Of a stretch of 64,000 nt of DNA, positions 3,981-52,124 are shown in pieces. The stretch's first letter is position 1. Every line of letters begins with the position of its first letter. Position numbers and translations under genes: made by a program. Source of the DNA: Christiangramia crocea (GTDB lineage: Bacteria; Bacteroidota; Bacteroidia; Flavobacteriales; Flavobacteriaceae); contig NZ_JAJSON010000013.1 in the NCBI RefSeq assembly GCF_022410465.1, positions 1 to 64,000 of the forward strand. Direction: 5' to 3'. The notes under the pieces are model-generated. The model was given only the letters and a program-made list of their open reading frames with translations. It ran no database searches and had not been told where the DNA came from.

Positions 3981-4062
3981 GCGGGCGTGGTGGAATTGGT
4001 AGACACGCTAGACTTAGGATCTAGTGCCGCAAGGTGTGAAGGTTCGAGTCCTTTCGCCCGCA
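3981..4062 (+). tRNA. tRNA-Leu (anticodon UAG)
   Basis: The acceptor arms GCGGGCG (3981-3987) and CGCCCGC (4055-4061) pair fully, with discriminator A at 4062. The anticodon stem CTAGA/TCTAG encloses the loop CTTAGGA, giving anticodon TAG. A class II variable arm and the GGTTCGAGTCC T-arm are present. CCA is not encoded. From 4012 onward the tRNA is also the attachment site of the element: the 3' part was supplied by the incoming DNA, so the gene remains functional. Confidence 0.96.
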
Positions 4063-4064
4063 CA
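4012..4064 (+). repeat. attL: 53-bp tRNA-Leu 3' repeat
   Basis: Identical base for base to 31701-31753; identity begins at the anticodon loop and ends two bases after the discriminator. Similarity resumes after a short indel through the following terminator. Confidence 0.92.
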
Positions 4065-14854: not shown

Positions 14855-14881
14855 AACCATTTGGTTAAACTATTTGGTTAA
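14855..14881 (+). promoter_or_regulatory. putative TetR operator
   Basis: AACCA-TT-TGGTT (14855-14866) is a perfect small palindrome, and the unit ATTTGGTTAA occurs twice, 13 bp apart (14859 and 14872), ending 16 bp before the TetR start. Position and symmetry suggest autorepression of the exporter operon. Confidence 0.5.
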
Positions 14882-14897
14882 CTTAAAAATTATAAAA

Positions 14898-15506
14898 ATG
14901 AAAGACGAAAAAACTGAAGACCAAATATTAGATGCGGCGGAGAAAGTATTTCAACGCAAGGGAATGGATGGTGCCCGTATGCAGGAAATCGCAAATGAAG
15001 CGGGTATCAACAAAGCTATGCTTCACTATTATTACCGAAGTAAGCGCTTCTTATTTGAAGCCGTATTTAGCAAAGCTTTTTCTATAATCGCTCCGGAGAT
15101 AAACAGAGTAATTAATGAAGATATTCCCCTATTTGAAAAAATAAGGAAATTCACACATAGATATATTGATTTTATACAAAAACACCCTTATATCCCAAAT
15201 TTTATAATCCAGGAGTTAAACCGAGATACCGATTTTATAAACGCCTTACAGTCAAAAAAAGGTTTTCCCGATTTTAGAAATTTCCAGGCCCAGGTCGAAC
15301 AGGAAGTTCGGGATGGTAAAATTAGAGCCATAAAGGCAGAACAACTATTTATCCACCTATTATCACTTAATATTTTTCCCTTCCTCGCAGCTCCATTACT
15401 CAAAGGATTCCTGAAAATTGATGATAAAACCTACAAAGACTTAATGGAAGACAGAAAAGAGGAAATTGTCAATATTATCATCAATTATATCCAAATAAAA
15501 GAATGA
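14898..15506 (+). CDS. TetR/AcrR-family regulator
   Basis: 202 residues. The N-terminal helix-turn-helix is typical: ILDAAEKVFQRKG then MQEIANEAGINKAMLHYYYRSKRFLFEAVF (about residues 10-60, quoted here only as markers IANEAGINK and LHYYYRSK). The C-terminal ligand domain is all-helical. The start MKDEKTED is preferred over one eight residues earlier, as the extra residues overlap the proposed operator. It overlaps the TolC gene by 4 bp (ATGA) and heads a ten-gene run, so it most likely represses the exporter and responds to a substrate of it. Confidence 0.92.
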   Translation: MKDEKTEDQILDAAEKVFQRKGMDGARMQEIANEAGINKAMLHYYYRSKRFLFEAVFSKAFSIIAPEINRVINEDIPLFEKIRKFTHRYIDFIQKHPYIPNFIIQELNRDTDFINALQSKKGFPDFRNFQAQVEQEVRDGKIRAIKAEQLFIHLLSLNIFPFLAAPLLKGFLKIDDKTYKDLMEDRKEEIVNIIINYIQIKE

Positions 15507-16768
15507 AAAAATTAAGCTTTTTAATTCTGCTATTGATCAGCTCCCTCACCTCAGCTCAGGAAATACTAACCCTCGAGGAATGCTATGATCTTGCAGAAGG
15601 AAATTATCCTTTAGCCAGTCAGTTATCTCTCCTGGAAGAGAAGACAGCCCGGGAACTTGAAGTGATCCATAAGGATTACCTGCCAAACATAGGTCTCAAT
15701 GCAAAAGTAACTTACCAGTCTGATGTTATAGAGATCCCGATGGATTTTGGTGGCCAGAACATTGAGGCTGTTGACAAAGACCAATACCGGGCAACCGTTG
15801 ATGTGGAGCAATTGATCTTTAACGGGGGAAAAATAACTGCAAGAAAGGATCTCAAAGAGGTGGAATTACTCTCTCAGCAACAAGAAGTAAAAGTAAACCT
15901 TTACCAGATCAAGAAAAGAATCAATCAGTACTATTTCGGGATTTTACAATTCAGAGAGAAGATGGCACTTCTGGATTCCAAGAAAGAGGCTTTATCTGAG
16001 AGAATTCAAGAACTGGAATCCCGGGTGAAATATGGTACAGCGATACCGGCTTCAGAGAATGTACTATATGCAGAAAGGTTGAACATTGAACAGCAACAGG
16101 ATGAAGTGGAGTCCCGACATCAAAGCGCCCTACAGAGCCTTTCAGCATACATAGCCATACCCATAGATACTTCTACCATACTGGAGTTACCGGAACAGGA
16201 AAGGTACCTGGAGGCCGATGGAACCAGACCTGAAACCTTGCTTTACAACCTGAAACAGGAAGAATTGGACCAACACCAAAGCCTCCTTTCGAAAAGCCTG
16301 TATCCCAACATCTATGGATTCGCCCAAGGAGGTTATGGGAAACCGGGTTATAACATGCTTGATAACTCTTTTGATGATTTCTACATGGTAGGAGTGAAAC
16401 TCAATTGGAATGTTTTTGACTGGGGCAAGGTGAAGGAACAGAAAAAATCCTTGGAGATATCCAAAAACCTGATCGATATAGAAAGAGAAAACTTCAATTT
16501 CAACAATCGCGTAGAACTGGAGGAGGCTCAAATGAAGATCAACAAAATCCAAAATATGCTGGAGAAGGACAAAGAAATCATTGCCTTACGCGAGCGTATT
16601 GTGGAAACTACACAATCACAACTCACTCACGGGGTCATCACTCCTTCGGAATATTTAACTGAATTCAACAAACTGTACGAGGCAAAAATAGATCAACAGC
16701 TTCATAAAATAGATCTACAAATGGCCAAAGCCGACTACAAAGTAATAAAAGGAAATACTGAAAAATAA
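15503..16768 (+). CDS. TolC-family outer-membrane efflux protein
   Basis: 421 residues: signal peptide to about residue 18 (LTSAQ), then the two-fold repeated outer-membrane-factor architecture of long coiled-coil helices (DSKKEALSERIQELESRVKYG in the first half, MLEKDKEIIALRERIVETTQ in the second) with TLEECYDLAE near the start. Forms the trimeric exit duct for the HlyD-like adaptor and ABC pump encoded next (5-bp gap). Translationally coupled to the TetR gene. Confidence 0.92.
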   Translation: MKKLSFLILLLISSLTSAQEILTLEECYDLAEGNYPLASQLSLLEEKTARELEVIHKDYLPNIGLNAKVTYQSDVIEIPMDFGGQNIEAVDKDQYRATVDVEQLIFNGGKITARKDLKEVELLSQQQEVKVNLYQIKKRINQYYFGILQFREKMALLDSKKEALSERIQELESRVKYGTAIPASENVLYAERLNIEQQQDEVESRHQSALQSLSAYIAIPIDTSTILELPEQERYLEADGTRPETLLYNLKQEELDQHQSLLSKSLYPNIYGFAQGGYGKPGYNMLDNSFDDFYMVGVKLNWNVFDWGKVKEQKKSLEISKNLIDIERENFNFNNRVELEEAQMKINKIQNMLEKDKEIIALRERIVETTQSQLTHGVITPSEYLTEFNKLYEAKIDQQLHKIDLQMAKADYKVIKGNTEK

Positions 16769-16773
16769 ACACG

Positions 16774-17667
16774 ATGAAAAAAGGATTAACCATACTGGTA
16801 TCATTTACAATTTTTGGCTTTACATCCTGCAATGATGATAACAAAGCAGATGGATACGGTAACTTTGAGGCCACAGAAGTCATCATTTCTTCGGAAGCCC
16901 AGGGAAAAATAAAATATTTTAAAGCCAAGGAAGGAGAGCAAATAGAACCTGGGATCCATGTAGCCCTGATCGATACCACGCAGCTACATTTAGAAATACA
17001 ACAACTCCAGGCCTCTAAACAGACTGTAGCTTCGAAATCCCAAAGTGTCTTCTCTCAAATAGATGTTCTTAATGAGAAACTAAAAATTGCGGAACGTGAA
17101 GAAAAGCGTGTAAAGAACCTCTTTGGAGAAAACGCCGCAACCCAGCGGCAGGTAGACCAGGCTGAAGGGGAAGTGCAGGTAATCAGGGAAGAAATAAAAA
17201 ATGTGAGGACTAAGAACTCCCCTATTGTAAATGAAATGCAATTGATCGACGCGCAGATTGCAAAGTTCAATGACCTCATTGAAAAAAGCATCATTGAAAA
17301 CCCCATAAAGGGAACTGTTCTTGCCACCTATGCCGAAACCGGGGAAATTACCGCCTTCGGAAGACCCCTGTACAAGATCGCTGATCTGGATGTTTTGACC
17401 CTGCGGGTGTATATCAGTGAAGTCCAGCTTTCAGATATTGAGCTGGGCCAGGAAGTACGAGTGAAAATAGATTCTAAAAAAGAACAAATGAAATCTTACC
17501 CCGGCCATATCAGCTGGATATCATCCTCGGCCGAATTTACTCCCAAAACAATTCAGACACGGGAAGAAAGAGCCAACCTGGTCTATGCCGTAGACATAGA
17601 AGTAGAAAACGACGGATCGCTTAAAATAGGAATGCCGGCAGAAATGTGGTTATCGACTACAGAGTAG
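16774..17667 (+). CDS. HlyD/YbhG-like membrane fusion lipoprotein
   Basis: 297 residues: lipobox TSC near residue 20, a split biotinyl-lipoyl domain (GKIKYFKAKEGEQIEPG and GTVLATYAETGEI), a central coiled-coil hairpin (about 75-165) and a beta-barrel/MP domain. The organisation matches YbhG-type periplasmic adaptors that link a YbhFSR-like ABC exporter to a TolC duct, exactly the genes on either side. The lipid anchor replaces the transmembrane helix used by other members. Confidence 0.9.
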   Translation: MKKGLTILVSFTIFGFTSCNDDNKADGYGNFEATEVIISSEAQGKIKYFKAKEGEQIEPGIHVALIDTTQLHLEIQQLQASKQTVASKSQSVFSQIDVLNEKLKIAEREEKRVKNLFGENAATQRQVDQAEGEVQVIREEIKNVRTKNSPIVNEMQLIDAQIAKFNDLIEKSIIENPIKGTVLATYAETGEITAFGRPLYKIADLDVLTLRVYISEVQLSDIELGQEVRVKIDSKKEQMKSYPGHISWISSSAEFTPKTIQTREERANLVYAVDIEVENDGSLKIGMPAEMWLSTTE

Positions 17668-17685
17668 TTAAATATAAAGAACGAC

Positions 17686-18621
17686 ATGAGTATCATATTA
17701 GAAAATATTACGAAGTCTTACAAGAAGGTCACTGCCGTAAAGGACATTTCCTTTGAGGTAAAACCGGGGGAATTGTTCGGGCTTATTGGTCCCGATGGTG
17801 CAGGAAAAACAACCCTTTTCCGGATCCTAACCACCTTGCTTTTTACAGATAGGGGAGAAGCTACAGTCGCAGGATATGATGTTGTGAAAGAGTACAAGGA
17901 AATCCGAAAGTCGGTTGGATACATGCCCGGGAAATTCTCTTTATATCAGGACCTGACCGTAGAAGAAAACCTGAAATTTTTTGCTACCATTTTCGGGACT
18001 ACCATAGAAGAAAATTACGATCTCATCAAAGATATATACCTCCAGATCGAACCCTTCAAGAAAAGAAGAGCCGGAAAACTTTCAGGAGGAATGAAACAAA
18101 AGCTGGCCCTTTCCTGTGCACTAATCCATAAGCCGAAGGTTTTGTTCCTGGATGAGCCAACTACTGGAGTCGACCCGGTTTCAAGAAAGGAATTTTGGGA
18201 CATGCTGAAAAGATTGAATAACAAAGGAATCACTACCCTGGTCTCTACCCCCTATATGGATGAAGCTGCCTTATGCGACCGGATAGCTCTTATTCAGGCC
18301 GGAAGAATATTGAAAATAGATACTCCTTCAAATATTATTGAGGAGCATGAAAAACAGATCTATAATGTTGAATCCAAGGATATGTATAAACTTATCCAGG
18401 ATCTAAAAGAATATCCTGAGAATGACAGCGTATTCGCCTTTGGGGAATTTGTCCATTACACCCACTCCAATGATGAATTTGCTCCTGAAGAACTAAAAAA
18501 ATATCTGGAAGAAAAAGGTCATGTGAAAGTGTTTATAGAGGCAACCTCCCCCGGGATCGAAGATATTTTTATGGACTTGTCCAGAACAAAAGACATTAAA
18601 GCCAAAGATAATGAAGTCTGA
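17686..18621 (+). CDS. ABC exporter ATPase, first half of a YbhF-type pair
   Basis: 311 residues. Walker A GPDGAGKTT at 35-43, signature LSGGMKQKLA, Walker B VLFLDEPTTGVDP and the H-loop equivalent in STPYMDEAALCDR: note Ser-Thr-Pro in place of the usual Thr-His, so the switch histidine is missing here. In enterobacterial YbhF two nucleotide-binding domains are fused; here they are two genes overlapping by 11 bp. Drives export through the permeases encoded downstream. Confidence 0.92.
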   Translation: MSIILENITKSYKKVTAVKDISFEVKPGELFGLIGPDGAGKTTLFRILTTLLFTDRGEATVAGYDVVKEYKEIRKSVGYMPGKFSLYQDLTVEENLKFFATIFGTTIEENYDLIKDIYLQIEPFKKRRAGKLSGGMKQKLALSCALIHKPKVLFLDEPTTGVDPVSRKEFWDMLKRLNNKGITTLVSTPYMDEAALCDRIALIQAGRILKIDTPSNIIEEHEKQIYNVESKDMYKLIQDLKEYPENDSVFAFGEFVHYTHSNDEFAPEELKKYLEEKGHVKVFIEATSPGIEDIFMDLSRTKDIKAKDNEV

Positions 18622-19348
18622 AGAAACCGTAATAGATGTCGAAAATCTGACCAAGAAGTTTGGTGATTTCACAGCGGTCAATGAAATTTCCTTTAAAACA
18701 TACAAAGGAGAAATATTTGGCTTCCTGGGAGCGAATGGCGCCGGAAAAACCACAGCCATGAAAATGCTCATCGGAATTTCCAAACCCTCATCCGGGAAGG
18801 CTTCTGTGACCGACTTTGACGTCTACTCCCAGCCTGACAGGATCAAGAGGAATATTGGATACATGAGCCAGAAATTCTCCATGTATGATGATCTCACTAT
18901 AAAAGAGAATATCACATTCTTTGGTGGTATTTATGGTCTTGACCGCAAGACCATAAAAACAAAAATCAGGGAAGTAATTAAAAGCCTGGGGTTGCAGGAT
19001 GTCGCTAATAAACTGGTGGGGGCCCTGCCTTTAGGCTGGAAACAGAAACTAGCTTTTTCAGTAGCCTTGTTACATGAACCCAGGATTGTTTTCCTGGATG
19101 AACCCACGGGGGGCGTAGATCCTATTACCCGCCGCCAGTTCTGGGAATTAATTTACAAACAGGCCTCCCAGGGAACTACCATATTCGTGACAACACATTA
19201 TATGGATGAAGCGGAATACTGTGACCGGGTATCCATAATGGTGGAAGGAAAAATTGAAGCTTTGGACACACCAAAAAATTTGAAAAGGGAATATAACACC
19301 GATTCAATGGATGGAGTATTCCTGAGACTGGCCAGGAATGTCGAATGA
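18611..19348 (+). CDS. ABC exporter ATPase, second half of a YbhF-type pair
   Basis: 245 residues. Walker A GANGAGKTT at 40-48, Walker B IVFLDEPTGGVDP and a proper switch histidine in VTTHYMDEAEYCDR. The signature motif is degenerate (LPLGWKQKLA instead of LSGGQ), as in the C-terminal half of YbhF. Together with the preceding subunit, which keeps LSGG but lacks the switch His, this suggests an asymmetric ATPase with one full and one degenerate site. The gene overlaps the previous one by 11 bp. Confidence 0.92.
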   Translation: MKSEETVIDVENLTKKFGDFTAVNEISFKTYKGEIFGFLGANGAGKTTAMKMLIGISKPSSGKASVTDFDVYSQPDRIKRNIGYMSQKFSMYDDLTIKENITFFGGIYGLDRKTIKTKIREVIKSLGLQDVANKLVGALPLGWKQKLAFSVALLHEPRIVFLDEPTGGVDPITRRQFWELIYKQASQGTTIFVTTHYMDEAEYCDRVSIMVEGKIEALDTPKNLKREYNTDSMDGVFLRLARNVE

Positions 19349-19373
19349 TCTGTACCATGCTTAAAAAACTTAT

Positions 19374-20480
19374 ATGAAACGTTTCATCGGATTTGTAAAA
19401 AAAGAGTTCTATCACATATTTCGTGATAAACGCTCTATGTTCATATTATTTGGAATGCCCATAGCCCAGATCCTGCTCTTCGGCTTTGCCATAACAAACG
19501 AGATCAACAATGTTGAAATCGGAATACTAGACAAATCAAAAGATCATGAATCCCGAAAAATAATCGATAAGATCAATGCTTCGGAATATTTCACCATAGG
19601 AAATGTGGTGGATAATGAAAACCAGATTGAATCGGTTTTCAAAAAAGGAGAAGTGAAAGCTTTCCTTGTCTTTGAAGAAGGCTTTGCAGAAAACCTGCAC
19701 GCCCTGCAACTTGGAAAGATTCAGGTGATCACCGATGCTACAGAACCTAATACTGCGAACACCATTGTAAATTATATCCAGTCCATCATCCAGCACTACC
19801 AGCAGGAATTAAACGAATCCTCAAGCGCAGGTGTCGAAATCCGGGTGCAGACACGAATGTACTTCAATGCAGAGCTTAAAAGTGTGTTCAATTTTCTTCC
19901 GGGCGTAATGACAGTCATCCTCATGCTGGTCTCCGCCATGATGACATCAATCTCCATTACACGTGAAAAAGAACTGGGAACTATGGAAATTTTGCTGGTT
20001 TCACCTTTAAAGCCTGTGCAGGTAGTTGTGGGAAAAGTTTTCCCCTACATATTTCTTTCGATTATAAATGCTTTGGTCATACTCATCCTGGGAGTAACAA
20101 TTTTTGAAATGCCCATAGAGGGTAGTTTGATCCTGCTGGCATTTGAAACGGTATTGTTCATTATTACTGCACTGTCCTTGGGAATTCTCATCTCTACTGT
20201 TGCTGAAACCCAGCAAACAGCTATGATGATCTCCCTAATGGGATTAATGCTACCGGTAATCCTCTTATCTGAATTTATTTTTCCTATTTCCAGTATGCCC
20301 CATCTTCTACAGTATATCAGCCACTTTATCCCTGCAAAATGGTTCATAATTATTCTTAAAGGAATCATGTTGAAAGGAGTCGGTATTATCTACCTGTGGA
20401 AAGAAACCCTGATCCTGGTTGTAATGGCCATTTTCTTGATTGCCCTAAGCATCAAAAAGTATAAAATTAGACTAGAATAA
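19374..20480 (+). CDS. ABC-2 type permease (YbhS/YbhR-like)
   Basis: 368 residues with the ABC2 architecture: one N-terminal transmembrane helix (about 22-40), a large periplasmic domain (about 45-170) and five C-terminal helices starting at FNFLPGVMTVILML. The cytoplasmic coupling motif TREKELGTMEILLVSPL is intact. Pairs with the next permease to form the channel; its stop and the next start share one base (TAATG). Confidence 0.92.
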   Translation: MKRFIGFVKKEFYHIFRDKRSMFILFGMPIAQILLFGFAITNEINNVEIGILDKSKDHESRKIIDKINASEYFTIGNVVDNENQIESVFKKGEVKAFLVFEEGFAENLHALQLGKIQVITDATEPNTANTIVNYIQSIIQHYQQELNESSSAGVEIRVQTRMYFNAELKSVFNFLPGVMTVILMLVSAMMTSISITREKELGTMEILLVSPLKPVQVVVGKVFPYIFLSIINALVILILGVTIFEMPIEGSLILLAFETVLFIITALSLGILISTVAETQQTAMMISLMGLMLPVILLSEFIFPISSMPHLLQYISHFIPAKWFIIILKGIMLKGVGIIYLWKETLILVVMAIFLIALSIKKYKIRLE

Positions 20481-21601
20481 TGAAAACCATAAGCTATATA
20501 GTACAAAAGGAGTTTCGGCAGATATTCAGGAACAAAGGGATGTTACCCATTATTTTTGTGCTTCCCCTTCTGCAACTGATCATTTTATCAAATGCCGCCA
20601 CCTTCGATATCGAGAACATTAAATTCTCCTACGTAGATCATGACAAAAGCTCCACTTCACGAGCTCTTATCGAAGATTTTGAGGCCTCCAGATATTTTGT
20701 GGTGCTTCAATCCTTTCCAGCACATAGCCTGGCCTATGAAAGTATGGAAAAAGGAGAAATAGATGTTATCCTGGAGATTCCTTCCAATTTTGAAGAACAG
20801 CTAGTGAGGGAACAGCAAACTGACCTGGGACTATATATCAATGCCATTGACGGTTCAAAGGCAGGAGTAGAAAGTGTATATATCAACCAGATCATCAAAA
20901 ATTTCAACAGGGATATTGTCATAAGTGCCATGGGCTTCAATCCTCGTCAAAACCAACAAATAAATGTATTGACGGTTCCTTCCTTCTGGTACAACAACAC
21001 CCTCAATTACAAAATCTTTATGGTTCCCGGAATATTGGTACTGCTGGTGACCATGCTAACCCTGTTCCTCTCCGGGATGAATATTGTGCGGGAAAAAGAA
21101 ATTGGAACCCTTGAACAGATCAACGTAACGCCCATAAAGAAATACCAGTTCATAATAGGAAAGCTGTTTCCATTCTGGGCTCTCGGTCTTCTCATTATGA
21201 CCATAGGCCTGATAATTTCAAAGGTCATCTTTGCAGTGCCCATGATCGGAAGTATTCCGCTTATTTATCTGTTTACCACTATCTACCTCCTGGTCATTCT
21301 AGGAATGGGACTTTTTATATCCAATTACACCGATACCCAACAACAAGCTATGTTTATTGCCTGGTTCTTTGTAGTCATTTTCATTTTGATGAGCGGACTC
21401 TTTACCCCCATAGAGAGTATGCCTGATTGGGCCCAAAAAATAACCCTCCTCAATCCAATCAGATATTTTGTAGAAATCATTAGAATGGTCATGCTCAAAG
21501 GATCAGGCTTAAATGATATTATGCCACAACTAACTATTATATCGGGATATGCCCTGGTCATGAATGCGCTGGCTGTGTGGAGTTACAAGAAAACAACCTA
21601 A
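20480..21601 (+). CDS. ABC-2 type permease, second subunit
   Basis: 373 residues with the same layout as the preceding gene: N-terminal helix, extracytoplasmic domain (DHDKSSTSRALIEDFEASRYF region) and C-terminal helices after the coupling segment VREKEIGTLEQINVTPI. The two permeases plus two ATPases, adaptor and TolC form a complete tripartite exporter of the YbhFSR type. Family members export drugs, cations or lipids; the substrate here is unknown. Confidence 0.92.
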   Translation: MKTISYIVQKEFRQIFRNKGMLPIIFVLPLLQLIILSNAATFDIENIKFSYVDHDKSSTSRALIEDFEASRYFVVLQSFPAHSLAYESMEKGEIDVILEIPSNFEEQLVREQQTDLGLYINAIDGSKAGVESVYINQIIKNFNRDIVISAMGFNPRQNQQINVLTVPSFWYNNTLNYKIFMVPGILVLLVTMLTLFLSGMNIVREKEIGTLEQINVTPIKKYQFIIGKLFPFWALGLLIMTIGLIISKVIFAVPMIGSIPLIYLFTTIYLLVILGMGLFISNYTDTQQQAMFIAWFFVVIFILMSGLFTPIESMPDWAQKITLLNPIRYFVEIIRMVMLKGSGLNDIMPQLTIISGYALVMNALAVWSYKKTT

Positions 21602-23469: not shown

Positions 23470-24036
23470 TTAATTAGCCATTTCATTCAGTAAAAAAAAA
23501 CCAATAGCTGCTATTAAGCCACCAAGAAACACAAAGACCGAAAACATTAATAACTTCTGTTTTTTGGAAATGACCTTTCCCAGAAAATATAAATCTTTAA
23601 CCAATTCATTATACAGACTCTGGCCATCTAACATTATTCGATCAAATTCATTCTTGAAGGCGTCAATTGACTGTTTTGAAAAATTTGCAGCGTAGAGGGT
23701 CCCTTTATAATTACTTGCTCTGAATTCCTTTCCCAAATATCGATGTGGAAGCATACTTAAAAGTGCCAAAACCATGGAAATTAAGCCACATATTACTAAT
23801 ATTCTTATACCATAATTTTCTTTTACATCTACATTTACATTATTTACATTTAACACTTGAATTCCAATCAATAAGGAAGTAATAATTGAATTTACCGTTA
23901 AGACAATTCTGGCTTTATTGTCTACCATTTTTAGAAGATTATAATGATTTCGTGAAACTGTCCTAAATAGTGTTTGCACTCCACGGGAATCATATTTCTT
24001 TAATTTTTCCTGAACCTTAACTGATTTTTCCTCCAT
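23470..24036 (-). CDS. orphan Pycsar-type membrane effector (PycTM/DUF5706-like)
   Basis: 188 residues. Near the N-terminus LFRTVSRNHYNLLKMVDNKA leads into a membrane segment (about 43-62) with LTVNSIITSLL; the RNH...DNKA..VNS arrangement is the mark of the DUF5706/Pycsar TM effector domain. A second helix lies at about 77-96 and a third at 162-184, after a soluble helical stretch. Family knowledge: these proteins sense cyclic CMP or UMP from a linked pyrimidine cyclase and disrupt the inner membrane during phage infection. No cyclase gene is in this window, so activation here is unexplained. Confidence 0.75.
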   Translation of the reverse strand: MEEKSVKVQEKLKKYDSRGVQTLFRTVSRNHYNLLKMVDNKARIVLTVNSIITSLLIGIQVLNVNNVNVDVKENYGIRILVICGLISMVLALLSMLPHRYLGKEFRASNYKGTLYAANFSKQSIDAFKNEFDRIMLDGQSLYNELVKDLYFLGKVISKKQKLLMFSVFVFLGGLIAAIGFFLLNEMAN

Positions 24037-24272: not shown

Positions 24273-24695
24273 TCAAAAAATGGAGCTCCTTAAGAATTCT
24301 CTGGAACTCCCTAATAAAAAATACATCAACTGAGGCGGATGCAAGATTCTGGTGACAAATAGTGAATTATACAAATCTGGCCGACAGCCAAAGTCATTCA
24401 GGGTAATAAATTCCTCTACATAAGCGAAATGAAATTCCGGAAGTCGTTCAGAAATGATAATCAGGGGAATTTCTATTTTGGAAGTTTTATTGCTATATGG
24501 GTCTTCTTTTTCCCCGGCGGCCTCTTCTGCAAGCTGTTTCGTAAGATAACATTTCCCGTTACATTCCATTTCGGGTTTATCTTTATTCTCACAAAGTTTA
24601 TCCACGATATAATCGTAATTCACGGCGTACTCCACTAAGGGCCACAACGGCCGGGAGATCATCAACAGGGCAATTGCAAGAATTACATGTTTCAC
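24273..24695 (-). CDS. Cys-motif protein, predicted Fnr-box target
   Basis: About 140 residues with one N-terminal hydrophobic segment (VILAIALLMISRPLWPLVEY) and the motif EMECNGKCYLTKQL near residue 47; a further Cys lies in DFGCRPD. CxxxC spacing might hold a metal or redox pair. I know similar Bacteroidetes proteins only as hypotheticals. The frame can be read from a TTG at 24704, but that codon is part of a TACATTTG -7 box, so translation more likely starts at GTG 24695 (almost leaderless) or at ATG 24662. The gene is preceded by a Fnr-like box and runs toward the Pycsar-type gene on the same strand. Confidence 0.7.
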   Translation of the reverse strand: MKHVILAIALLMISRPLWPLVEYAVNYDYIVDKLCENKDKPEMECNGKCYLTKQLAEEAAGEKEDPYSNKTSKIEIPLIIISERLPEFHFAYVEEFITLNDFGCRPDLYNSLFVTRILHPPQLMYFLLGSSREFLRSSIF

Positions 24696-24701
24696 TGGCA
24701 G

Positions 24702-24746
24702 CAAATGTACCTTAAATCACGCTTAAAGTATATGATCATAATCACA
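24702..24746 (-). promoter_or_regulatory. Fnr-like box and -7 element, promoter 1
   Basis: On the minus strand TGTGAT-tatg-ATCATA (24731-24746) is followed by TACATTTG (24702-24709). Box centre to the last G of the -7 element is 36.5 bp, the same as at the two other boxed promoters, which places the box near -41.5. Confidence 0.65.
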
Positions 24747-24919
24747 ATTGGATCTTTCTATAATTTCAAATATTTTAAGACATAATCAGACCACTCTTCT
24801 GCCAGAAGTACTTTGAAGCATTTTCTAACAATCTAAAGTGTATAATATCATTTCAGATTTTATATTTGTACAGACCCTATTTTTTTTAAATCATTCCAGT
24901 CCATATAGATTTTTAAAAC

Positions 24920-25381
24920 CTAGTTCTCAATAAATCTCACGGTAGATGTTATTTCAGAATGAATGATTTTACCTCCTGTGTTTCCAACATAACCAGCCAA
25001 GATTCCGCTTGCCACAGCTATTAACAAACAAACGACCATGAAAAGATTAGAATACCTGATTTTTTTTACTTCTATGATAAAAGTAATTATAGAAAAAATC
25101 CCCAGAACCAACATTAGGTTTAAAAACAACTCTGCCAATTCTTCATGGTCATGAATAGAGGCTTCACTGATACCTGGAAGGTTTTCAACAATATCTTCGG
25201 CTCCCTCACCTGTGTAAAACGCAGGTATAGAGGTAAGAGATCCAAAAATAAAAATTCCAAGGCCGGTGAGGCGTACATCTCTATTCTTCAATAGAAAACC
25301 TGCCAGAACCACAACCGAACCAATAACCAAAGCTAAAAATGGTAAATGATTTACAAGTAAATGAAGATGTGCATTGTTCAT
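24920..25381 (-). CDS. DUF2231-like four-helix membrane protein
   Basis: 153 residues, four transmembrane helices (about 10-30, 37-57, 88-108, 115-135). It opens with NNAHLHLLVNHLPFLALVIG; the conserved His pairs (HLHLLVNH) and a later H-D-H near residue 83 resemble DUF2231/heme-handling membrane proteins. Follows the DUF6448 gene by 57 bp on the same strand, probably one operon. A heme or metal role is a guess from the histidines; the family function is not established. Confidence 0.7.
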   Translation of the reverse strand: MNNAHLHLLVNHLPFLALVIGSVVVLAGFLLKNRDVRLTGLGIFIFGSLTSIPAFYTGEGAEDIVENLPGISEASIHDHEELAELFLNLMLVLGIFSIITFIIEVKKIRYSNLFMVVCLLIAVASGILAGYVGNTGGKIIHSEITSTVRFIEN

Positions 25382-25438
25382 AATTCAGGAGTTATAGTAT
25401 TAAAATAAAATCTTCAGAGGATTCTTAACATTTATAAT

Positions 25439-26086
25439 TCATTCATGATTATGAGAAGGAGCTACTCTATCATGCTCCATAAGATCATGAATAGCTTCAA
25501 GGGTATGGGTGTAATCCACATAAGCTCTAACATACTCCCTACCCCTTTCAACAGATTCATTTTTCACCTTGTCCAGGCCTGCAACTACCGAATATTTTTT
25601 TCTAATCACTTTCCCCAAATGAGCGTTAAACTTTTCGATGAGGTCATCAACGTCCTTATTTGCCAGGGCGTGGTCGCTAAGTTCTATAACTTGTTTTGTC
25701 TCACCTGCAGGTTTTAATCCTGTAAAAGGAGCCCCTTCTGTTTCCCGGTGCAATCTGACCAGGGTTTCAAAAAAATGCTTTTTTACAATTCCGTAAACTT
25801 CTTCATCCTTATTTTTAAGATTGTAAGTTTTGTTGAACAAATCCACAATTTGTGGTTCTTGCTCTTCACTTATCCACTTTAAAACTAAACTCACGTTATT
25901 CCTTTCCAGAGCTTTCTGTGCATCCTGTATTACAGGGCCGTCATAAGAATCACAATGAGCGTTTGCTGGTAAGGAGCCGACAAAAAACATAATGAATATG
26001 GTTAAAAGCGATAAGATGTTACGGTAGTCAATTTTAGAGATATTATTCTTTTTAAAATTTTTAATTGCATTTTGTTTTGGTTTCAT
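25439..26086 (-). CDS. DUF6448 family exported protein
   Basis: 215 residues. After a basic N-terminus a signal segment (about 24-43, ILSLLTIFIMFFVGSLPANA) leads to the mature start HCDSYDGPVIQDAQKALE, the diagnostic opening of DUF6448. The rest is helical with spaced His residues and ends in a His-rich tail (HDLMEHDRVAPSHNHE), suggestive of metal binding. I recall this family beside respiratory and nitric-oxide genes in Bacteroidetes, but its role is unknown. A TAGTTTTG element at 26115-26122 (-) may be its -7 box; no Fnr-like box accompanies it. Confidence 0.78.
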   Translation of the reverse strand: MKPKQNAIKNFKKNNISKIDYRNILSLLTIFIMFFVGSLPANAHCDSYDGPVIQDAQKALERNNVSLVLKWISEEQEPQIVDLFNKTYNLKNKDEEVYGIVKKHFFETLVRLHRETEGAPFTGLKPAGETKQVIELSDHALANKDVDDLIEKFNAHLGKVIRKKYSVVAGLDKVKNESVERGREYVRAYVDYTHTLEAIHDLMEHDRVAPSHNHE

Positions 26087-26190
26087 GATATAATTACGTT
26101 TTGATTTATTAGAACAAAACTATAGCTCATATCTTCCCCAAGCGACCTACTTTCGAAGCTGGCACCTATATCTCTCGTATTTTTGATGAA

Positions 26191-27321
26191 TTATCTTGTA
26201 ATCGACCTTTTATATGCACTAGGGGTGCTGCCGGTCATTTTTTTAAAGATTCTGTTGAAGGCCGATTTTGAATTGAAGCCACTTTCGAAAGCAATGCCAA
26301 GCAGGGATAAATTATCGAATTTCGGATTGGCTATTTTAGTTTTAACTTCTTCGACCCTGTATTGGTTGATGAAATCAAAAAAATTCAATTTTAATCTCTC
26401 ATTAATTACTCTTGAAAGGTGATGTGATGGAATTTCAAGTTGAGATGCCAAATCGGGCAGGCTAAGGTGAGCATTCAAATATGGTTTCTCCTGTTCCATG
26501 TAGCCCTGAATTTTCTTTAGATACATGTTTGCTTCGGCATCTTCAAATAAAACATTTGAATAACCGGTATCGGCATCGGTGACATAATCGATTTCTTTAT
26601 GGGGATAATCAATAAAAATTTCCTTCTGCTTAAGACCTAAATATCCAATCATGATTACAAAGACAGATAAGGATAGAAATAATCCATCCGTACAGAATTT
26701 CCACGAGAATAAATTGAAAACATGATGAATGACGGCAACGATGATTAAAACCGTCCAAACGGCCCCAAAAGAATAAACTAATTTTCTTAACCAATCAGGA
26801 TTCACATCTTCACGACTGGAAAAATTGTTTTTCACCTGAAAATCAAAATCTTTAAACAGTTTGAAAGCTAACAAGAAATAGGCAGGACCGGAAAGGGCAG
26901 TAAGCGCCAAAAAGAAATTAAATAACCAGGGCGCCTGTTGCTCCTGTTCTACATGATCTAATCTTAACCTCCCTGATACCTCTGGAAATAAAAGAGTGCT
27001 CAACACGAAAACATTGAATAAAAAGAAAGGTAAGAAATGAAGCAGGCTTTTTTTATTAAAATGAAAATTCCTTTCCAACAAGGCTGAAATATACAAATAG
27101 AGAAAAGGACCGTGAAGCATGAGCAGAGAAATAAAACTTACCGACAGAAGATGAAAATGGGTAAATAAAATATCTGATACAAAAGCATAGGTGCCAGTAT
27201 ATAATCCTAAAAATATCAACCAGTAAATGAGAATTTTGTCATGTAAGGCTTTCTTTTTCTGTAGGATCAAGAGGGAGAAGAATAAAGCATTGAAAGCACC
27301 TATTAAAAAGAAATATTTCAC
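26191..27321 (-). CDS. AraC-type regulator with membrane domain
   Basis: 376 residues. The N-terminal half holds about seven transmembrane helices (4-20, 28-48, 58-80, 92-112, 130-152, 172-195, 205-222). The C-terminal 100 residues are an AraC helix-turn-helix: LPDLASQLEIPSHHLSRVIN and LLGIAFESGFNSKSAFNRIFKKMTGSTPSAY. Membrane-bound AraC regulators are common in Bacteroidetes. It may sense a membrane signal and control the DUF6448/DUF2231 pair directly downstream (104 bp), or itself. Confidence 0.9.
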   Translation of the reverse strand: MKYFFLIGAFNALFFSLLILQKKKALHDKILIYWLIFLGLYTGTYAFVSDILFTHFHLLSVSFISLLMLHGPFLYLYISALLERNFHFNKKSLLHFLPFFLFNVFVLSTLLFPEVSGRLRLDHVEQEQQAPWLFNFFLALTALSGPAYFLLAFKLFKDFDFQVKNNFSSREDVNPDWLRKLVYSFGAVWTVLIIVAVIHHVFNLFSWKFCTDGLFLSLSVFVIMIGYLGLKQKEIFIDYPHKEIDYVTDADTGYSNVLFEDAEANMYLKKIQGYMEQEKPYLNAHLSLPDLASQLEIPSHHLSRVINERLKLNFFDFINQYRVEEVKTKIANPKFDNLSLLGIAFESGFNSKSAFNRIFKKMTGSTPSAYKRSITR

Positions 27322-27851
27322 GATTTTATGATTCAGTATAGTGAAGGCAAGTGTTTTGTCCGCTCGAAGTAATTAAGAATCTGGGTTTGATCAACAGATA
27401 TTACTTTATTTATAAGAAAATGAACCTTTTTCAATATTTTTAGGAGGCAAAATGAACAGGTTAAATTTACATAAAAGTTTCCTACATAACTACATTATGA
27501 TTCAAATCCTATATAATAAGAAAGTAAAATCCAAGAAGTAAAATAGGGTTAATCACAGGTCGAGAATGCATAGTTTCCAGAAATTTCCTTTTTTAATATT
27601 ATTGACTTAAAATTCAAATCCAGGCACAATTCAAATCTTTAATCTACAAGGTGACTCATGGAGTTCATAACCTTTTTTATTAGTTCTTTCCTTTATAAAA
27701 AATAGTTGTCATCAAAGAAATGGAAAAGGCTCTTTAGCAATAATTTTTAAAAGAGTTATCCCTTAAATCAACTATAAATTGAATTTCAAAGCATATTTAT
27801 ATACATTAGTATGCAATTGGCCTAACCTATTTCCAGAAAAATAAATCATCA
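27322..27851. other. divergent intergenic region of AraC and Crp/Fnr genes
   Basis: 530 bp, strongly AT-rich. A weaker Fnr-like box (TATGAT-tcaa-ATCCTA) is at 27496-27511, without a -7 element at the spacing seen elsewhere; a half site TATGATTCAG is near 27328. A 29-codon frame at 27452-27541 (+) has an AGGAGG seven bases before its ATG, unusual here, but no homology can be judged. ATCAT-ca-ATGAT spans the crp start codon. Confidence 0.4.
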
Positions 27852-28448
27852 ATGATCCCATCTGATTTGCTATTAAAAAACGGTGCAATAATTAAATCTT
27901 TTAGTAAGAATGATTTCGTATTCAAAGAGGGACAAAAGGCAAATTACTACTTTCAAATCGTATCAGGTGAGGTTAAAATGAACAATATTCTAGAAAGTGG
28001 GAAGGAATTTATCCAAAGTTTTTTTAAACCACCTCAAAGTTTCGGAGAACCTCCATTATTTACGGATATAGATTATCCGGCTAATGCAATTGCTACAACG
28101 AAATCAGAAATAATTCTACTAAAAAAAGCATCTTTTATAAAATTATTAAAGTCTCAACCCGAAATTCATTTAAAAATAACAACGGCTCTTGCTCATAGAC
28201 TTTATTACAAATCGATAATGGCTACGGAAATTTCTTATCAGGAACCCGAACATAGAGTTTTACGCCTATTAGACTATTTAAAATATAATATATATAATTT
28301 AAATGAACCATTTTCATTTAAGGTTGGATTAACTAGACAGGAAATTGCGGACCTTACCGGTCTCAGAGTTGAGACCGTAATACGTACAACGCGTAATCTT
28401 CAAAAAAAGAATGAATTAAAGATCAAGAACAGAAAATTATATCGGTAA
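27852..28448 (+). CDS. Crp/Fnr-family regulator
   Basis: 198 residues: cyclic-nucleotide-binding-type beta-barrel (about 10-120; FKEGQKANYYFQIVSGEV), dimer helix and winged helix with LTRQEIADLTGLRVETVIRTTRNL at 160-183. Glu 174 and Arg 178 occupy the positions that read the TGAT core in Fnr-type proteins. There is no N-terminal Cys cluster, so it is not an iron-sulfur oxygen sensor; heme or NO sensing as in DNR is possible but cannot be seen. It sits among three promoters with TGAT-N4-ATCA boxes, one of them 24 bp after its own stop, and is their likely regulator. Confidence 0.9.
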   Translation: MIPSDLLLKNGAIIKSFSKNDFVFKEGQKANYYFQIVSGEVKMNNILESGKEFIQSFFKPPQSFGEPPLFTDIDYPANAIATTKSEIILLKKASFIKLLKSQPEIHLKITTALAHRLYYKSIMATEISYQEPEHRVLRLLDYLKYNIYNLNEPFSFKVGLTRQEIADLTGLRVETVIRTTRNLQKKNELKIKNRKLYR

Positions 28449-28471
28449 AAGAATCTTCTCTAAATTTATCA

Positions 28472-28516
28472 TATGATTCAGATCATAAAATAGGATAAAA
28501 CTCACAGTTAACTTTG
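28472..28516 (+). promoter_or_regulatory. Fnr-like box and -7 element, promoter 2
   Basis: TATGAT-tcag-ATCATA (28472-28487) is a perfect dyad. TAACTTTG, a perfect TAnnTTTG, follows at 28509-28516; box centre to final G is 36.5 bp. It drives the small membrane gene at 28540. Confidence 0.7.
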
Positions 28517-28539
28517 AAGTAATCATAATCGAATTTTTT

Positions 28540-28821
28540 ATGTATTACTACAACAAATTTTTCAATGATTTTAAGGAATCATTTTACATGCACGCCACAT
28601 TAGGAATAATACTATCCAGCTGTTTAGGAGCTGCCAGTGCAATGCTCGTCATGATAAATGGTAATAGTTTAATAGAGATGTTTCAAATATTTCTTATTAC
28701 AAGTGTATGTATGGGATTCAATGCCACTGTATTGGCTAATTTAAAACCTAAAATTGTTTTCAATTCTTTATTGATAAGTTTATTTTTAAATGTTGCTATT
28801 ATTATATATTATATTCTTTAA
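28540..28821 (+). CDS. small membrane protein, predicted Fnr-box target
   Basis: 93 residues with three hydrophobic segments (about 20-37, 45-63, 72-92) and an N-terminal amphipathic stretch YYYNKFFNDFKESF. No family is recognised. The gene starts 23 bp after the -7 element of a perfect Fnr-like promoter and 91 bp after the regulator gene, so it is probably expressed with the RIC gene under the same stress. AT content is very high, as in the regulator gene. Confidence 0.65.
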   Translation: MYYYNKFFNDFKESFYMHATLGIILSSCLGAASAMLVMINGNSLIEMFQIFLITSVCMGFNATVLANLKPKIVFNSLLISLFLNVAIIIYYIL

Positions 28822-28939
28822 AAATTTAGTTTAATTAAAAAAAGTATATAATTTAAGTTTAATTGGCTATACCGTAAGTTTTTAAACATCTTCTAATTAA
28901 ACTAATCCGCCTAAAACAATTGATAAAATTTTAAAAAAT

Positions 28940-29659
28940 CTATCTAATTTTCTTCTCAAGCTTCATAGCTCCCGGATGTAAAATATTATTTTCCAGATGT
29001 ATATGTTGATGCAGATCTTCTTCAAATTCTACCAGTTTATCAAATAAGGCTCTGTATGTATTGCAGGCATGAGCCGGGGGGGTGTAATTATTTGTAATGC
29101 GTGCTATTTCTTTAAAAGTATCCCCAGCGAATTCATGCTCATCCTCCATCATCTTAATAGGGTTCTCTACCGTATTAAAATGAGGAACATTTAATTCAAT
29201 ACCATCTTTTTCAGCCTGTACCATCTTTTTAATAAACGGAAAAAGTATCATCTCTTCCTTTTTTAGGTGGCCTGCCAGTTCGCCAGCGACCTTCTGGAAT
29301 AACTGTTCTACTTTAATGAGTTCAGGATTATTGCCTCCATGAACTCTCGCTACTTTTTGTGAATACTGAAGCAGTAAAGGAATATTAGCCTCGACATAGG
29401 TATGATGTTTACTTACAATATGATCTATAAGTTCATCTAGAGGAAGTTTGCTAAAATCCCATTCATTTTCTGTCGGATTTCCTACGTTCTTTAGGTCTTC
29501 AGCTAAAAGAGAGTAATCCAATCCATTTTTTTCACATGCTTTCTGAATACTAATTCCGCCGCCACAGCAGAAATCAATTCCATATTTCTTAAAGACATGA
29601 GAGGCCTTTATATTCTCGGTCACACAATCGGCCACCGTTCTTTCCGGAGTAAATTCCAT
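28940..29659 (-). CDS. ric: RIC family iron-sulfur cluster repair di-iron protein (ScdA/YtfE)
   Basis: 239 residues from MEFTPERTVAD; 15 in-frame residues upstream overlap the promoter and are not used. The N-terminal DUF542 domain has the CCGGG motif (Cys 31, Cys 32), and the hemerythrin-like domain follows with spaced His/Glu ligands (SKHHTYVEANIP, HLKKEEMILFPF, MMEDEHEFAG, DLHQHIHLENNIL). RIC proteins restore iron-sulfur clusters damaged by nitric oxide or peroxide. The promoter carries a Fnr-like box at the class II position, consistent with nitrosative or microaerobic induction. Confidence 0.95.
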   Translation of the reverse strand: MEFTPERTVADCVTENIKASHVFKKYGIDFCCGGGISIQKACEKNGLDYSLLAEDLKNVGNPTENEWDFSKLPLDELIDHIVSKHHTYVEANIPLLLQYSQKVARVHGGNNPELIKVEQLFQKVAGELAGHLKKEEMILFPFIKKMVQAEKDGIELNVPHFNTVENPIKMMEDEHEFAGDTFKEIARITNNYTPPAHACNTYRALFDKLVEFEEDLHQHIHLENNILHPGAMKLEKKIR

Positions 29660-29688
29660 AAGGATTCTTTTAATAATTAATAATGATT

Positions 29689-29733
29689 CAAAAATACAGG
29701 ACAATATTGTCTTTAATTATGATTTCAATCACA
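29689..29733 (-). promoter_or_regulatory. Fnr-like box and -7 element, promoter 3 (ric)
   Basis: On the minus strand TGTGAT-tgaa-ATCATA (29718-29733) precedes TATTTTTG (29689-29696); box centre to final G is 36.5 bp. No -33 TTTG is present, as expected where an activator replaces it. Confidence 0.7.
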
Positions 29734-30319: not shown

Positions 30320-31537
30320 TTAAAAATCTAATACACTATTTAAAGCTTTATCAGTTTCTCGGTTCATAAAATTTGACTGATACATTATGGTGGTAGTAAC
30401 CGAAGAATGGCGATACAGTTTCTGTAACATTTGGATAGGGATTCTATCACCGGCAATATTACCAAAACTATGTCGTGCTATATGCATGGTTAGTTTTTTC
30501 TTTATACCGGCTTTCCGTGCAACATTTTTCAAGTATGAATTCAGAACTCTATTTCCTCTTTTAGATCTATCAAAAAGGCTCTTTTCATTTTCTGGATTTA
30601 CTAATTTAAGTTCAGGAAAAATATAATCATTCTCCGATTGTTTATCAGCATTATAATCTTCCAAAATTTTTTGGATCTTATCTGGTAGCTGTAAAGAAAC
30701 TACCTTAGAATTCTTACTCATTGTATAATGAATTCTATTATCATAAATATCACTCCATCGCATTCTTAAAACATCCGCAATCCTTATACCGGCCAAATAA
30801 AAACTAAACAGCCATACGTTCCTGGCATGATGTTCCTCTTTGGAAAGATTATTTTTAAGATCCTCTATTTTTTTAACCTCTTCTCTTGTTAATCCGACCT
30901 TTCCCGTCTCAGGAAAACGTATTACAATTTTATCTCGTCCAAATGGATAAAATTTCCTATCTATAAGTCCCTGCCGTATGGCTCTGTTGAAGATTAATCT
31001 TATAAATACAAGATGGTTTGCTATTGTTCTCTCAGAGACTTTTGCTGTATTTCTTAGATACTGCATATATTTTCTTATAAATGCCTCATCAAGATCCTTA
31101 TAAGAGAGTTTTCTACATTTTATATATTTCTCAATATGACCTAAATAGGCTTTATCCACAGAATACCTTCCATACTTATTATTTCCTTTAACTTCTTTTA
31201 AATGAATATCTCCTAACTCAAAGAAATTACTATCCTTCTCAGAAATAGAGAGTTCTTTTTTAATCTGCCCGGCAGAATAATCCTTCATCTCTGTTTGTAA
31301 TTCAAGCAGCTGCTTATTGGTTTCCGCTAATTTTGTGAAAAGTAGATTATTTATTCTGGCAGCATTTTCATGGGATTTCTTGACCCTACATTTATTTTTA
31401 TCCCAATGCTTAATATCAATATAATGGCCTATATACAAATAAGAAGATTTCCTATATTTGGTAATACGAATGGCAAGTGGAAAATGCCCTCTTCTATTTG
31501 GTTTTTTACGGAGTACTATTGAAGCATTGGAATTCAT
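30320..31537 (-). CDS. int: tyrosine recombinase (integrase) of the element
   Basis: 405 residues: arm-binding domain (about 1-90), SAM-like core-binding domain (about 105-205) and catalytic domain (215-400). The catalytic set is complete: Arg 252 (AGIRIADVLR), His 352 and Arg 355 (MHIARHSFG), His 377 (LYRHSS) and Tyr 386 (TTTIMYQ). Typical of Bacteroidetes integrases that use tRNA genes. It lies 163 bp inside attR and is transcribed away from it. It should recombine the 53-bp repeats to excise or insert the element. Confidence 0.95.
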   Translation of the reverse strand: MNSNASIVLRKKPNRRGHFPLAIRITKYRKSSYLYIGHYIDIKHWDKNKCRVKKSHENAARINNLLFTKLAETNKQLLELQTEMKDYSAGQIKKELSISEKDSNFFELGDIHLKEVKGNNKYGRYSVDKAYLGHIEKYIKCRKLSYKDLDEAFIRKYMQYLRNTAKVSERTIANHLVFIRLIFNRAIRQGLIDRKFYPFGRDKIVIRFPETGKVGLTREEVKKIEDLKNNLSKEEHHARNVWLFSFYLAGIRIADVLRMRWSDIYDNRIHYTMSKNSKVVSLQLPDKIQKILEDYNADKQSENDYIFPELKLVNPENEKSLFDRSKRGNRVLNSYLKNVARKAGIKKKLTMHIARHSFGNIAGDRIPIQMLQKLYRHSSVTTTIMYQSNFMNRETDKALNSVLDF

Positions 31538-31700: not shown

Positions 31701-31753
31701 ACTTAGGATCTAGTGCCGCAAGGTGTGAAGGTTCGAGTCCTTTCGCCCGCACA
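31701..31753 (+). repeat. attR: displaced tRNA-Leu 3' fragment
   Basis: Perfect copy of 4012-4064. It lacks the tRNA 5' half (upstream sequence is unrelated), so it is the original chromosomal 3' end displaced by insertion. Confidence 0.92.
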
Positions 31754-50418: not shown

Positions 50419-50468
50419 AACTAATGGATTAATTAGACTAAAATGATGACAATGCAGGGGTTGCCACT

Positions 50469-50517
50469 ATAAAATTGGAAATTTACAGGCATATTCTGGT
50501 GGTATAAAAACGACATT
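50469..50517. repeat. shared upstream element, copy 1
   Basis: 49 bp matching 52076-52124 at 46 positions, about 50 bp before the gene start in each case. The central dyad seen in copy 2 is broken here (ACAGG-CATAT-TCTGG). Confidence 0.75.
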
Positions 50518-50536
50518 CTCACCACGAGAAATAGAG

Positions 50537-50570
50537 GAAGTCCGGATCCCTCTGTAGCGACCCGGACTTC
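50537..50570 (-). terminator. terminator of haloperoxidase-like gene 2
   Basis: GAAGTCCGG / CCGGACTTC, 9-bp stem with a 16-nt loop, 67 bp after the stop of gene 2; the T run is weak. The stem core is the same AAGTCCGG sequence as in the terminator of gene 1. Confidence 0.6.
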
Positions 50571-50636
50571 TCTCAAAAATTCACAGGAAATCACATAGAA
50601 ACTGTAAACTCCTTCTATTCTTTCACTAAAAACACT

Positions 50637-52025: not shown

Positions 52026-52075
52026 AACTGATGAATTAATTAAACAAAATGGATGACAACGCAGGGATTGACAAC

Positions 52076-52124
52076 ATAAAATTGGAAATTTCCAGACATA
52101 TTCTGGTGGTAAAAAAACGACATT
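52076..52124. repeat. shared upstream element, copy 2, with CCAGA-N5-TCTGG dyad
   Basis: 49 bp nearly identical to 50469-50517. It contains the perfect dyad CCAGA-CATAT-TCTGG at 52092-52106. It lies between the AraC-type gene stop and the haloperoxidase 2 start. A regulator site retained by duplication is the simplest reading. Confidence 0.7.

Follow-up and report, generated by a model that had tools for sequence, protein, structure and literature searches.

Predicted class II Crp/Fnr sites at one promoter spacing on an integrative element of Christiangramia crocea

The stretch of DNA analysed here (the window) comprises the first 64,000 nucleotides of contig NZ_JAJSON010000013.1 of Christiangramia crocea (Flavobacteriaceae) and contains an integrative element, hereafter the island, on which three promoters combine a Crp/Fnr-type box, TGAT-N4-ATCA, with the promoter element TAnnTTTG at one distance. 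They precede the genes for a Cys-motif protein, a 93-residue (93-aa) membrane protein and the iron-sulfur cluster repair protein RIC, and they are well supported, from their sequence, as predicted class II Crp/Fnr activator sites with the dyad centred near -41.5. A regulator of the Crp/Fnr family is encoded among them (the island Crp), and it is likely that class II activation is exerted by this cysteine-free, DNR/NnrR-like protein, with the island sites joining a low-oxygen regulon of the host. The geometry, its conservation and genomic spread, the gene neighbourhoods and the ends of the element were computed; activation, nitric oxide (NO) as the signal and the assignment of regulators to sites are what we infer.

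Geometry of the three island sites

Site 1, TGATTATGATCA-N23-TACATTTG, occupies 24702..24744 on the reverse strand before the Cys-motif gene; site 2, TGATTCAGATCA-N23-TAACTTTG (28474..28516, forward strand), lies before the gene for the 93-aa protein and shows a TCATAAA flank; and site 3, TGATTGAAATCA-N23-TATTTTTG (29689..29731, reverse strand), lies before the RIC gene. A pattern search of the window placed the TGAT-N4-ATCA cores at 24733-24744, 28474-28485 and 29720-29731, and the corresponding elements are TACATTTG at 24709..24702 (-), TAACTTTG at 28509-28516 (+) and TATTTTTG at 29696..29689 (-). The element was searched as TANNTTTG, the narrower TAVVTTTG having been dropped because TATTTTTG escaped it. 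A first-pass annotation, made from the sequence alone, had reported a box and a TAnnTTTG element at these three places, and both are present, in each case with exactly 23 bases between core and element, i.e., 36.5 bp from the box centre to the final G.

In a study of Flavobacterium psychrophilum, the sigma-A element TAnnTTTG is placed at -12 to -5 (PMC9723704). With the final G at -5, the box centre of the island sites falls at -41.5, and the class II position given in the first-pass annotation is thus supported on flavobacterial numbering, the dyad lying 36.5 bp from the G at -5.

Recurrence of the spacing

The simplest alternative is that boxes and promoter elements coincide by chance in an AT-rich genome. 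In its favour, the box by itself occurs at about the expected frequency, with four copies in the window versus 2.45 expected and 27 of 100 shuffles reaching four. The box without the element was discarded as evidence because its window count is close to expectation.

The gap between box and element contradicts chance. The 3.9-Mb genome holds nine matches to the strict pattern TGATNNNNATCA-N{8,38}-TANNTTTG, which allows 31 gaps, and the gap is 23 in five of them; leaving aside the three reported sites, it is 23 in 2/6 (p = 0.014). With the box relaxed to TGAY-N4-RTCA and gaps of 10-36 (27 gaps), 10 of 15 matches in the same genome have gap 23, or 7 of 12 after removal of the three reported sites (p = 6e-8). 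Among the matches listed from 18 further genera of Flavobacteriaceae, gap 23 accounts for 31 of 141, gap 24 for 12 and gap 22 for six, where about 4.5 would be expected per gap (p = 3e-17 for gap 23); p values such as these overstate independence, since many of the compared loci are closely related, a point to be set against our interpretation. Underlying this histogram are the matches listed for 18 of the 59 genomes compared, with the list for the eighteenth in part; the nine of the own genome are left out. In addition, relatives of the island Crp were collected, and genes within 6 kb of the Crp gene were considered in the best 80 of 392 (the named loci, to which all counts so labelled refer). 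These loci yielded 62 exact matches, 53 of them at gap 23 or 24, versus none in their reversed sequences.

The gap histograms already refute a chance coincidence, and the orthologous promoters contradict it as well, so that its probability is negligible; box and element at one spacing are a significant signal. The first-pass annotation had named a random recurrence of the spacing across the genome as grounds for rejecting its proposal. The gap of 23 does recur genome-wide and across genera, but far above chance expectation.

Orthologous promoters

Composite sites (gaps 22-24, at most two mismatches) were found before 21 of 29 homologues of the 93-aa gene, compared with a shuffle mean of 0.12 and a maximum of 2; in this one-per-genus sample, the gap is 23 in 16 sites and 24 in five. 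Within the named loci, 49 of 53 93-aa genes are preceded by a site with at most one mismatch, the gap being 24 in 36 and 23 in 13. In locus L054, a Crp of the island subfamily (the small Crp, delimited by score at bits >240 vs <100 for the rest) is present and no site was found. Since the gap upstream of 93-aa homologues is 23 or 24, box centre and final G stand 36.5 or 37.5 bp apart, and this spacing is no absolute constant. The fixed 36.5 bp of the first-pass annotation therefore applies to the three island sites but not as a constant, and its expectation of a conserved spacing in orthologous promoters is borne out in that the site is kept, but not in that a single gap is.

Homologues of the Cys-motif gene have a site in 12 of 29 cases (gaps 22-24, at most two mismatches; shuffle mean 0.25, maximum 2), and at no more than one mismatch in 8 of 29, versus 0 at all shifted gap triples. 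At two mismatches, shifted triples also score (6/29 for gaps 27-29, 4/29 for gaps 31-33, and 1, 0 and 1 of 29 for the remaining three), which makes the link to the Cys-motif gene weaker. Locus L081, at a contig end, has no properly placed upstream stretch and was counted as a miss among the 29. Of the two proteins of unknown function that had been tied to low-oxygen or NO stress at the outset, the 93-aa protein keeps this link and the Cys-motif protein keeps it in weaker form; a functional link to the low-oxygen/NO response is supported, on promoter evidence, best for the former.

Sites also precede other genes of the named loci, namely RIC in 5/16, HemN in 2/2, Cys-motif in 3/4 and YceI genes in 6/12. 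Globin genes have a site in 6/48 and lie mostly downstream within the same gene run; acetyl-CoA-hydrolase-like (0/9), usp-like (0/2) and fusion-like genes (0/5) in these loci had none.

Sites elsewhere in the host genome

With the relaxed box, the own genome has 10 gap-23 sites, three on the island and seven elsewhere. The latter lie upstream of the nos operon with NosZ (C11:147073; TIGR04246 above cut-off), before hemN (C11:158791; TIGR00538 above cut-off), about 340 bp upstream of a usp-like gene assigned by family matches (C11:143175), before a 2-oxoacid:ferredoxin oxidoreductase with POR domains (C27:87000) and, with genes identified by eye, before a second usp-like gene (C3:124128), a nadA-nadB pair (C27:94233) and a lipoprotein-carrier-like/ABC group (C17:86576). 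One-mismatch sites were found at a pyruvate:ferredoxin oxidoreductase, at a further usp-like gene, at the gene that follows a CcoI-like copper ATPase, and at a run of genes that starts with YceI and has the host's second 93-aa gene as its last member; further one-mismatch matches were left without gene assignment (L115 3808-, L116 16174+ and 10968-, L118 2049+ and 2018-, window 39002+). A second ric gene stands directly behind hemN (the pair at C11:156666-158771, downstream of the gap-23 site), and its protein is 82% identical to the island RIC. The host thus already has a RIC repair gene in its low-oxygen regulon. The proposal that the entire regulon resides on the mobile element fails on these seven chromosomal sites and the second ric; instead, the island carries one portable part of a regulon already present in the host and its family.

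Crp/Fnr proteins bound at -41.5 could also hinder the polymerase, the sites then acting as repressor sites or roadblocks. Activation and repression are indistinguishable from sequence alone, which leaves room for this idea. Repressors, however, put up with variable spacing, and here the 23/24-bp gap to the -7 element (TAnnTTTG) is kept across unrelated operons, as contact-dependent activation needs; repression is accordingly very improbable.

The island Crp and its neighbourhoods

The island Crp (27852..28448, +) has 198 residues, no cysteine, and the recognition helix GLRVETVIRTTRNL; its cNMP-binding and Crp-type helix-turn-helix domains (PF00027, PF13545 and PF00325, above cut-offs) place it in the Crp/Fnr superfamily. 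The motif RVETVIR is nearly invariant in its close relatives. Of the residues with which CRP and FNR contact DNA, the helix keeps Glu and Arg, and it has Val at the position of Arg180 in CRP. An earlier study ties R180 and E181 to site bases 3 and 6 (PMC1274295). The helix residues of the island Crp would fit a TGAT-type half-site. The island Crp is thus not an FNR-type Fe-S sensor: the [4Fe-4S] cysteine ligands of FNR proper are absent from it, and no cysteine is conserved across nine aligned proteins.

Among the named loci, 53 contain a 93-aa gene, 48 a truncated haemoglobin gene (a label resting on the PF01152 match of one member) and 45 both, while 16 contain RIC, six NosZ and four qNor. 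Of 24 genomes from the own genus, three encode this Crp, namely the genome of the window and two congeners, G203 and G205. In these congeners, the genes for Crp, the 93-aa protein, RIC and a NorB-type reductase stand in a row (domains checked in one of them), and G205 also has a copper nitrite reductase, NirK, above the curated cut-off. The first-pass annotation was right to note a Crp/Fnr gene beside the sites, and its relatives often lie near NO-linked genes. Based on this company, the island Crp most likely responds to NO, with NO or nitrite as the presumed signal.

Which regulator reads the sites

The bases that follow the box differ between groups of sites. TAAA follows the box in 42 of 50 93-aa promoters and in 4 of 5 RIC promoters of the named loci. 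Of 11 chromosomal sites of the own genome, nine show T[AT]TT and one shows TAAA. In genomes that lack the small Crp, TAAA follows the gap-23 box in 2 of 20 sites, or in 2 of 23 if three sites omitted from that set (G058, G023 and G016, none starting with TAAA) are included. When 93-aa loci with a site were sorted by hand into those with and those without the small Crp, TAAA was found in 11/12 with it versus 0/9 without it in the first set, and in 13/15 versus 0/12 after six loci were added (Fisher p = 6e-6).

The alternative to be taken most seriously is that host regulators, either a response-regulator-Crp fusion (C11:140437-141480) or another Crp/Fnr protein, read the island sites at low oxygen, the island Crp having a different or overlapping role. 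The chromosomal C11 sites cluster around a histidine kinase and this fusion, and near the fusion exact gap-23 sites belong to the nos operon and to one usp-like gene, one-mismatch sites to another usp-like gene and to the gene that follows the CcoI-like copper ATPase. The recognition helices are alike (ESLIRT in the fusion, ETVIRT in the island Crp), the genome encodes ten cNMP-domain proteins, genomes without the small Crp still have gap-23 sites, and sites 1 and 3 do not have the TAAA flank. This alternative does not account well for the 93-aa promoters, in which TCATAAA tracks the small Crp in the locus in the proportions just given. The flank also differs between two copies within one genome: G026, G054, G096 and G156 have TAAA at the copy beside the Crp and lack it at the other, and G195 has TATA beside the Crp versus TATT at the other copy. 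Weighing both sides, we regard reading by host regulators as rather unlikely, and assignment to the island Crp is the interpretation followed below.

Several observations weigh against that interpretation. The flank TAAA tracks the locus and not the genome: G031, G195 and G156, which supply three of the nine Crp-free loci of the first set, have 93-aa sites without it though a small Crp is encoded elsewhere in the genome, as do the second 93-aa copies of G026, G054 and G096. Only site 2 has the exact small-Crp flank, site 1 being followed by TATA and site 3 by TAAT, and TAAA follows none of the 12 sites of the Cys-motif family. By comparison of the bases, the flank of site 3 appears close to the small-Crp type, while that of site 1 would leave its assignment undecided. 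The Crp gene itself lacks a site in 77 of 79 homologues in the named loci (two have one), and 11 of the 16 RIC genes there lack one at no more than one mismatch. NO or nitrite is named as the signal from the gene neighbours, and NosZ or qNor lies within 6 kb in only 10 of 80 named loci and NirK in none of them (0/80). Finally, gap-23 sites occur in genomes that lack both the small Crp and any near relative of the fusion (G059, G044, G017, G003, which is 80% complete, G019 and G014), which implies that at least one more regulator reads the box.

In two of these genomes, G017 (gap 23, one mismatch) and G003 (gap 22, exact), a site separates a CcoI-like gene from a different Crp/Fnr gene, and neither genome has the fusion regulator. 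The Crp/Fnr protein encoded beside the CcoI-like gene in these loci (L206 in G017:C4, L207 in G003:C15) is of a third type, with N-terminal cysteines (MGKCEQC and MSKCGQC, respectively). Its position beside the boxes suggests an exchange of the master regulator, and several Crp/Fnr lines seem to share one core box.

Products of the three genes

The 93-aa protein (28540..28821, +) is a membrane protein with a predicted N-terminal helix, three long helices, and Cys28 and Gly30, of which Gly30 is invariant and Cys28 nearly invariant among homologues. The protein family occurs in 57 of 199 genomes sampled across the Flavobacteriaceae, and no Pfam family matched it. The best of five structural models has a mean pLDDT of 91.5 (range 91.5 to 68.1). 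A comparison with the PDB gave no match better than E 1.7, and a function was therefore not derived from the fold.

RIC (28940..29656, -) is an iron-sulfur cluster repair di-iron protein of the RIC/YtfE type, with PF04405 (ScdA_N), PF01814 (hemerythrin) and TIGR03652 at 249.3 bits (cut-off 204.7). A globin related to that of locus L052 was not found in the window.

The Cys-motif protein (CNGKCYL; family core CxGKC) is encoded at 24273..24695 (-), with its conserved start at GTG 24695, six nucleotides after the -7 element, so that the message would be nearly leaderless. The longest open reading frame begins at TTG 24704, a codon that is unusable as a start if site 1 is the promoter, because it lies inside TACATTTG. 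No Pfam or NCBIfam model matched at E 0.01, and the structural model is of low confidence (mean pLDDT 63.2, pTM 0.25), with only the N-terminal helix well predicted. Members of this protein family were found in 115 of the 199 genomes. A perfect TAnnTTTG ends 4-6 nucleotides before the start in 14 of 29 Cys-motif genes (window 24693-24709 (-), L079-L108), and four more have a one-mismatch element 4 nucleotides before it; with or without a Crp box, mRNAs of these genes would have almost no leader or none at all, and their start codons are ATG or GTG.

Eleven of the 12 Cys-motif homologues that have a site stand ahead of a TonB-receptor cluster; the remaining one is on a short contig. For the one receptor examined, a relationship to the copper receptor family TIGR01778 was seen (E 1e-24, under the cut-off of that model). 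Seven homologues beside MbnP-like genes (PF20243 in the one examined) and seven beside another cluster (CL7) have no box. Our best guess for the role of the Cys-motif protein is copper supply for low-oxygen copper enzymes, i.e., NosZ, cbb3 oxidase and NirK.

The mobile element

The genes for Crp, the 93-aa protein, RIC and the Cys-motif protein all lie inside an element delimited by two copies of a repeat, identical over 53 bases and 27.7 kb apart. One copy (4012..4064, +) is at the 3' end of a tRNA-Leu gene (3981-4063), and the other (31701..31753, +) adjoins a tyrosine recombinase (30320..31537, -; PF00589, PF17293, PF13102). In the congener G207, both flanks are contiguous at the tRNA, which is an empty site. 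Integrase, att repeats and empty site are those of an integrative element, and the location on a mobile element reported in the first-pass annotation is therefore correct. The same features are shared with the tRNA-targeting integrative elements of Bacteroidota, and RadC- and SSB-like genes were seen.

Other contents of the window include an island protein with a PycTM domain, as in Pycsar effectors (23470-24036, -); none of the ten proteins scanned together with it was recognised as a cyclase, an island-wide cyclase search not having been made. At 14874-21601, also on the island, consecutive genes resemble by eye those for a TetR regulator, TolC-type and membrane-fusion proteins, two ABC ATPases and a pair of ABC-2 permeases, which would make up an efflux set. 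At 49792-52124, two long direct repeats share a 1607-bp spacing (300 nt at 70% and 196 nt at 80%) and lie outside the island; they probably reflect the tandem duplication of a gene.

Relation to known systems

Class II promoters of FNR in Escherichia coli have the box centred at -41.5 and TTGAT-type half-sites, read by a recognition helix with Glu and Arg. The island sites share the centre and the half-site type, and the island Crp keeps the Glu and Arg; in contrast, the island protein is free of cysteine and a different sigma element is used. With DNR/NnrR, the island Crp has in common a Crp/Fnr fold without conserved cysteines, an FNR-like box, and RIC, NosZ, qNor or NirK as neighbours in some relatives. 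It differs in its use of the Bacteroidota promoter element and of a TGAY half-site without a fixed leading T, and in that the closest partners of the 198-residue subfamily are the 93-aa membrane protein and the truncated haemoglobin.

HcpR is likewise a Crp/Fnr protein, and one of its motifs, TTGACnnnnGTCAA, is close to TGAY-N4-RTCA. In the study by Rodionov et al. (2005), dnrN (RIC) of B. fragilis is assigned to HcpR, and the HcpR2 motif upstream of hcp genes, those of Bacteroides included, is GTAACnnnnGTTAC (PMC1274295), which differs from the island box. A CRP/FNR homologue of Flavobacteriales has been compared with MalR, and the portion of that report at hand names no such box (PMC8510549). 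No prior description of the box in Flavobacteriaceae was found in searches confined to open-licence PMC papers.

Proposed mechanism and implications

The proposed activation by the island Crp would proceed as follows. Sites 1-3 would sit on ordinary Bacteroidota sigma-A promoters, with TAnnTTTG at -12 to -5, and a Crp dimer centred at -41.5 would touch RNA polymerase and switch the gene on. The island regulator (27852-28448), as a DNR/NnrR-like protein, would sense NO. In many Flavobacteriia, relatives of this Crp stand directly before a 93-aa gene and a truncated haemoglobin gene, and the element would have brought a shortened module (Crp, 93-aa and RIC), together with the Cys-motif gene, into a host whose own low-oxygen regulon appears to use the same grammar at nos, hemN-ric, usp-like genes and 2-oxoacid:ferredoxin oxidoreductases. 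The chromosomal sites of the host are probably read by the response-regulator-Crp fusion, and the island promoters would plug into the existing regulon rather than form a closed one.

A broader generalisation, which we put forward tentatively as possible though short of probable, is that one -41.5 grammar (TGAY-N4-RTCA, 23-24 bp, TAnnTTTG) serves flavobacterial low-oxygen and NO genes, that several Crp/Fnr lines discriminate among sites by the bases on the flank of the core (TCATAAA in the case of the NO-linked small Crp, TCAT(A/T)TT in that of housekeeping lines), and that the small-Crp module is moved by mobile elements, immediately regulated and possibly overlapping the host regulon. If true, a simple pattern would predict low-oxygen and NO regulons in the family, including the nosZ operon, a sink for N2O; the 93-aa and Cys-motif families would gain testable roles in NO handling and copper supply; and the island would be a clear-cut example of a mobile module with the same promoter grammar as its host.

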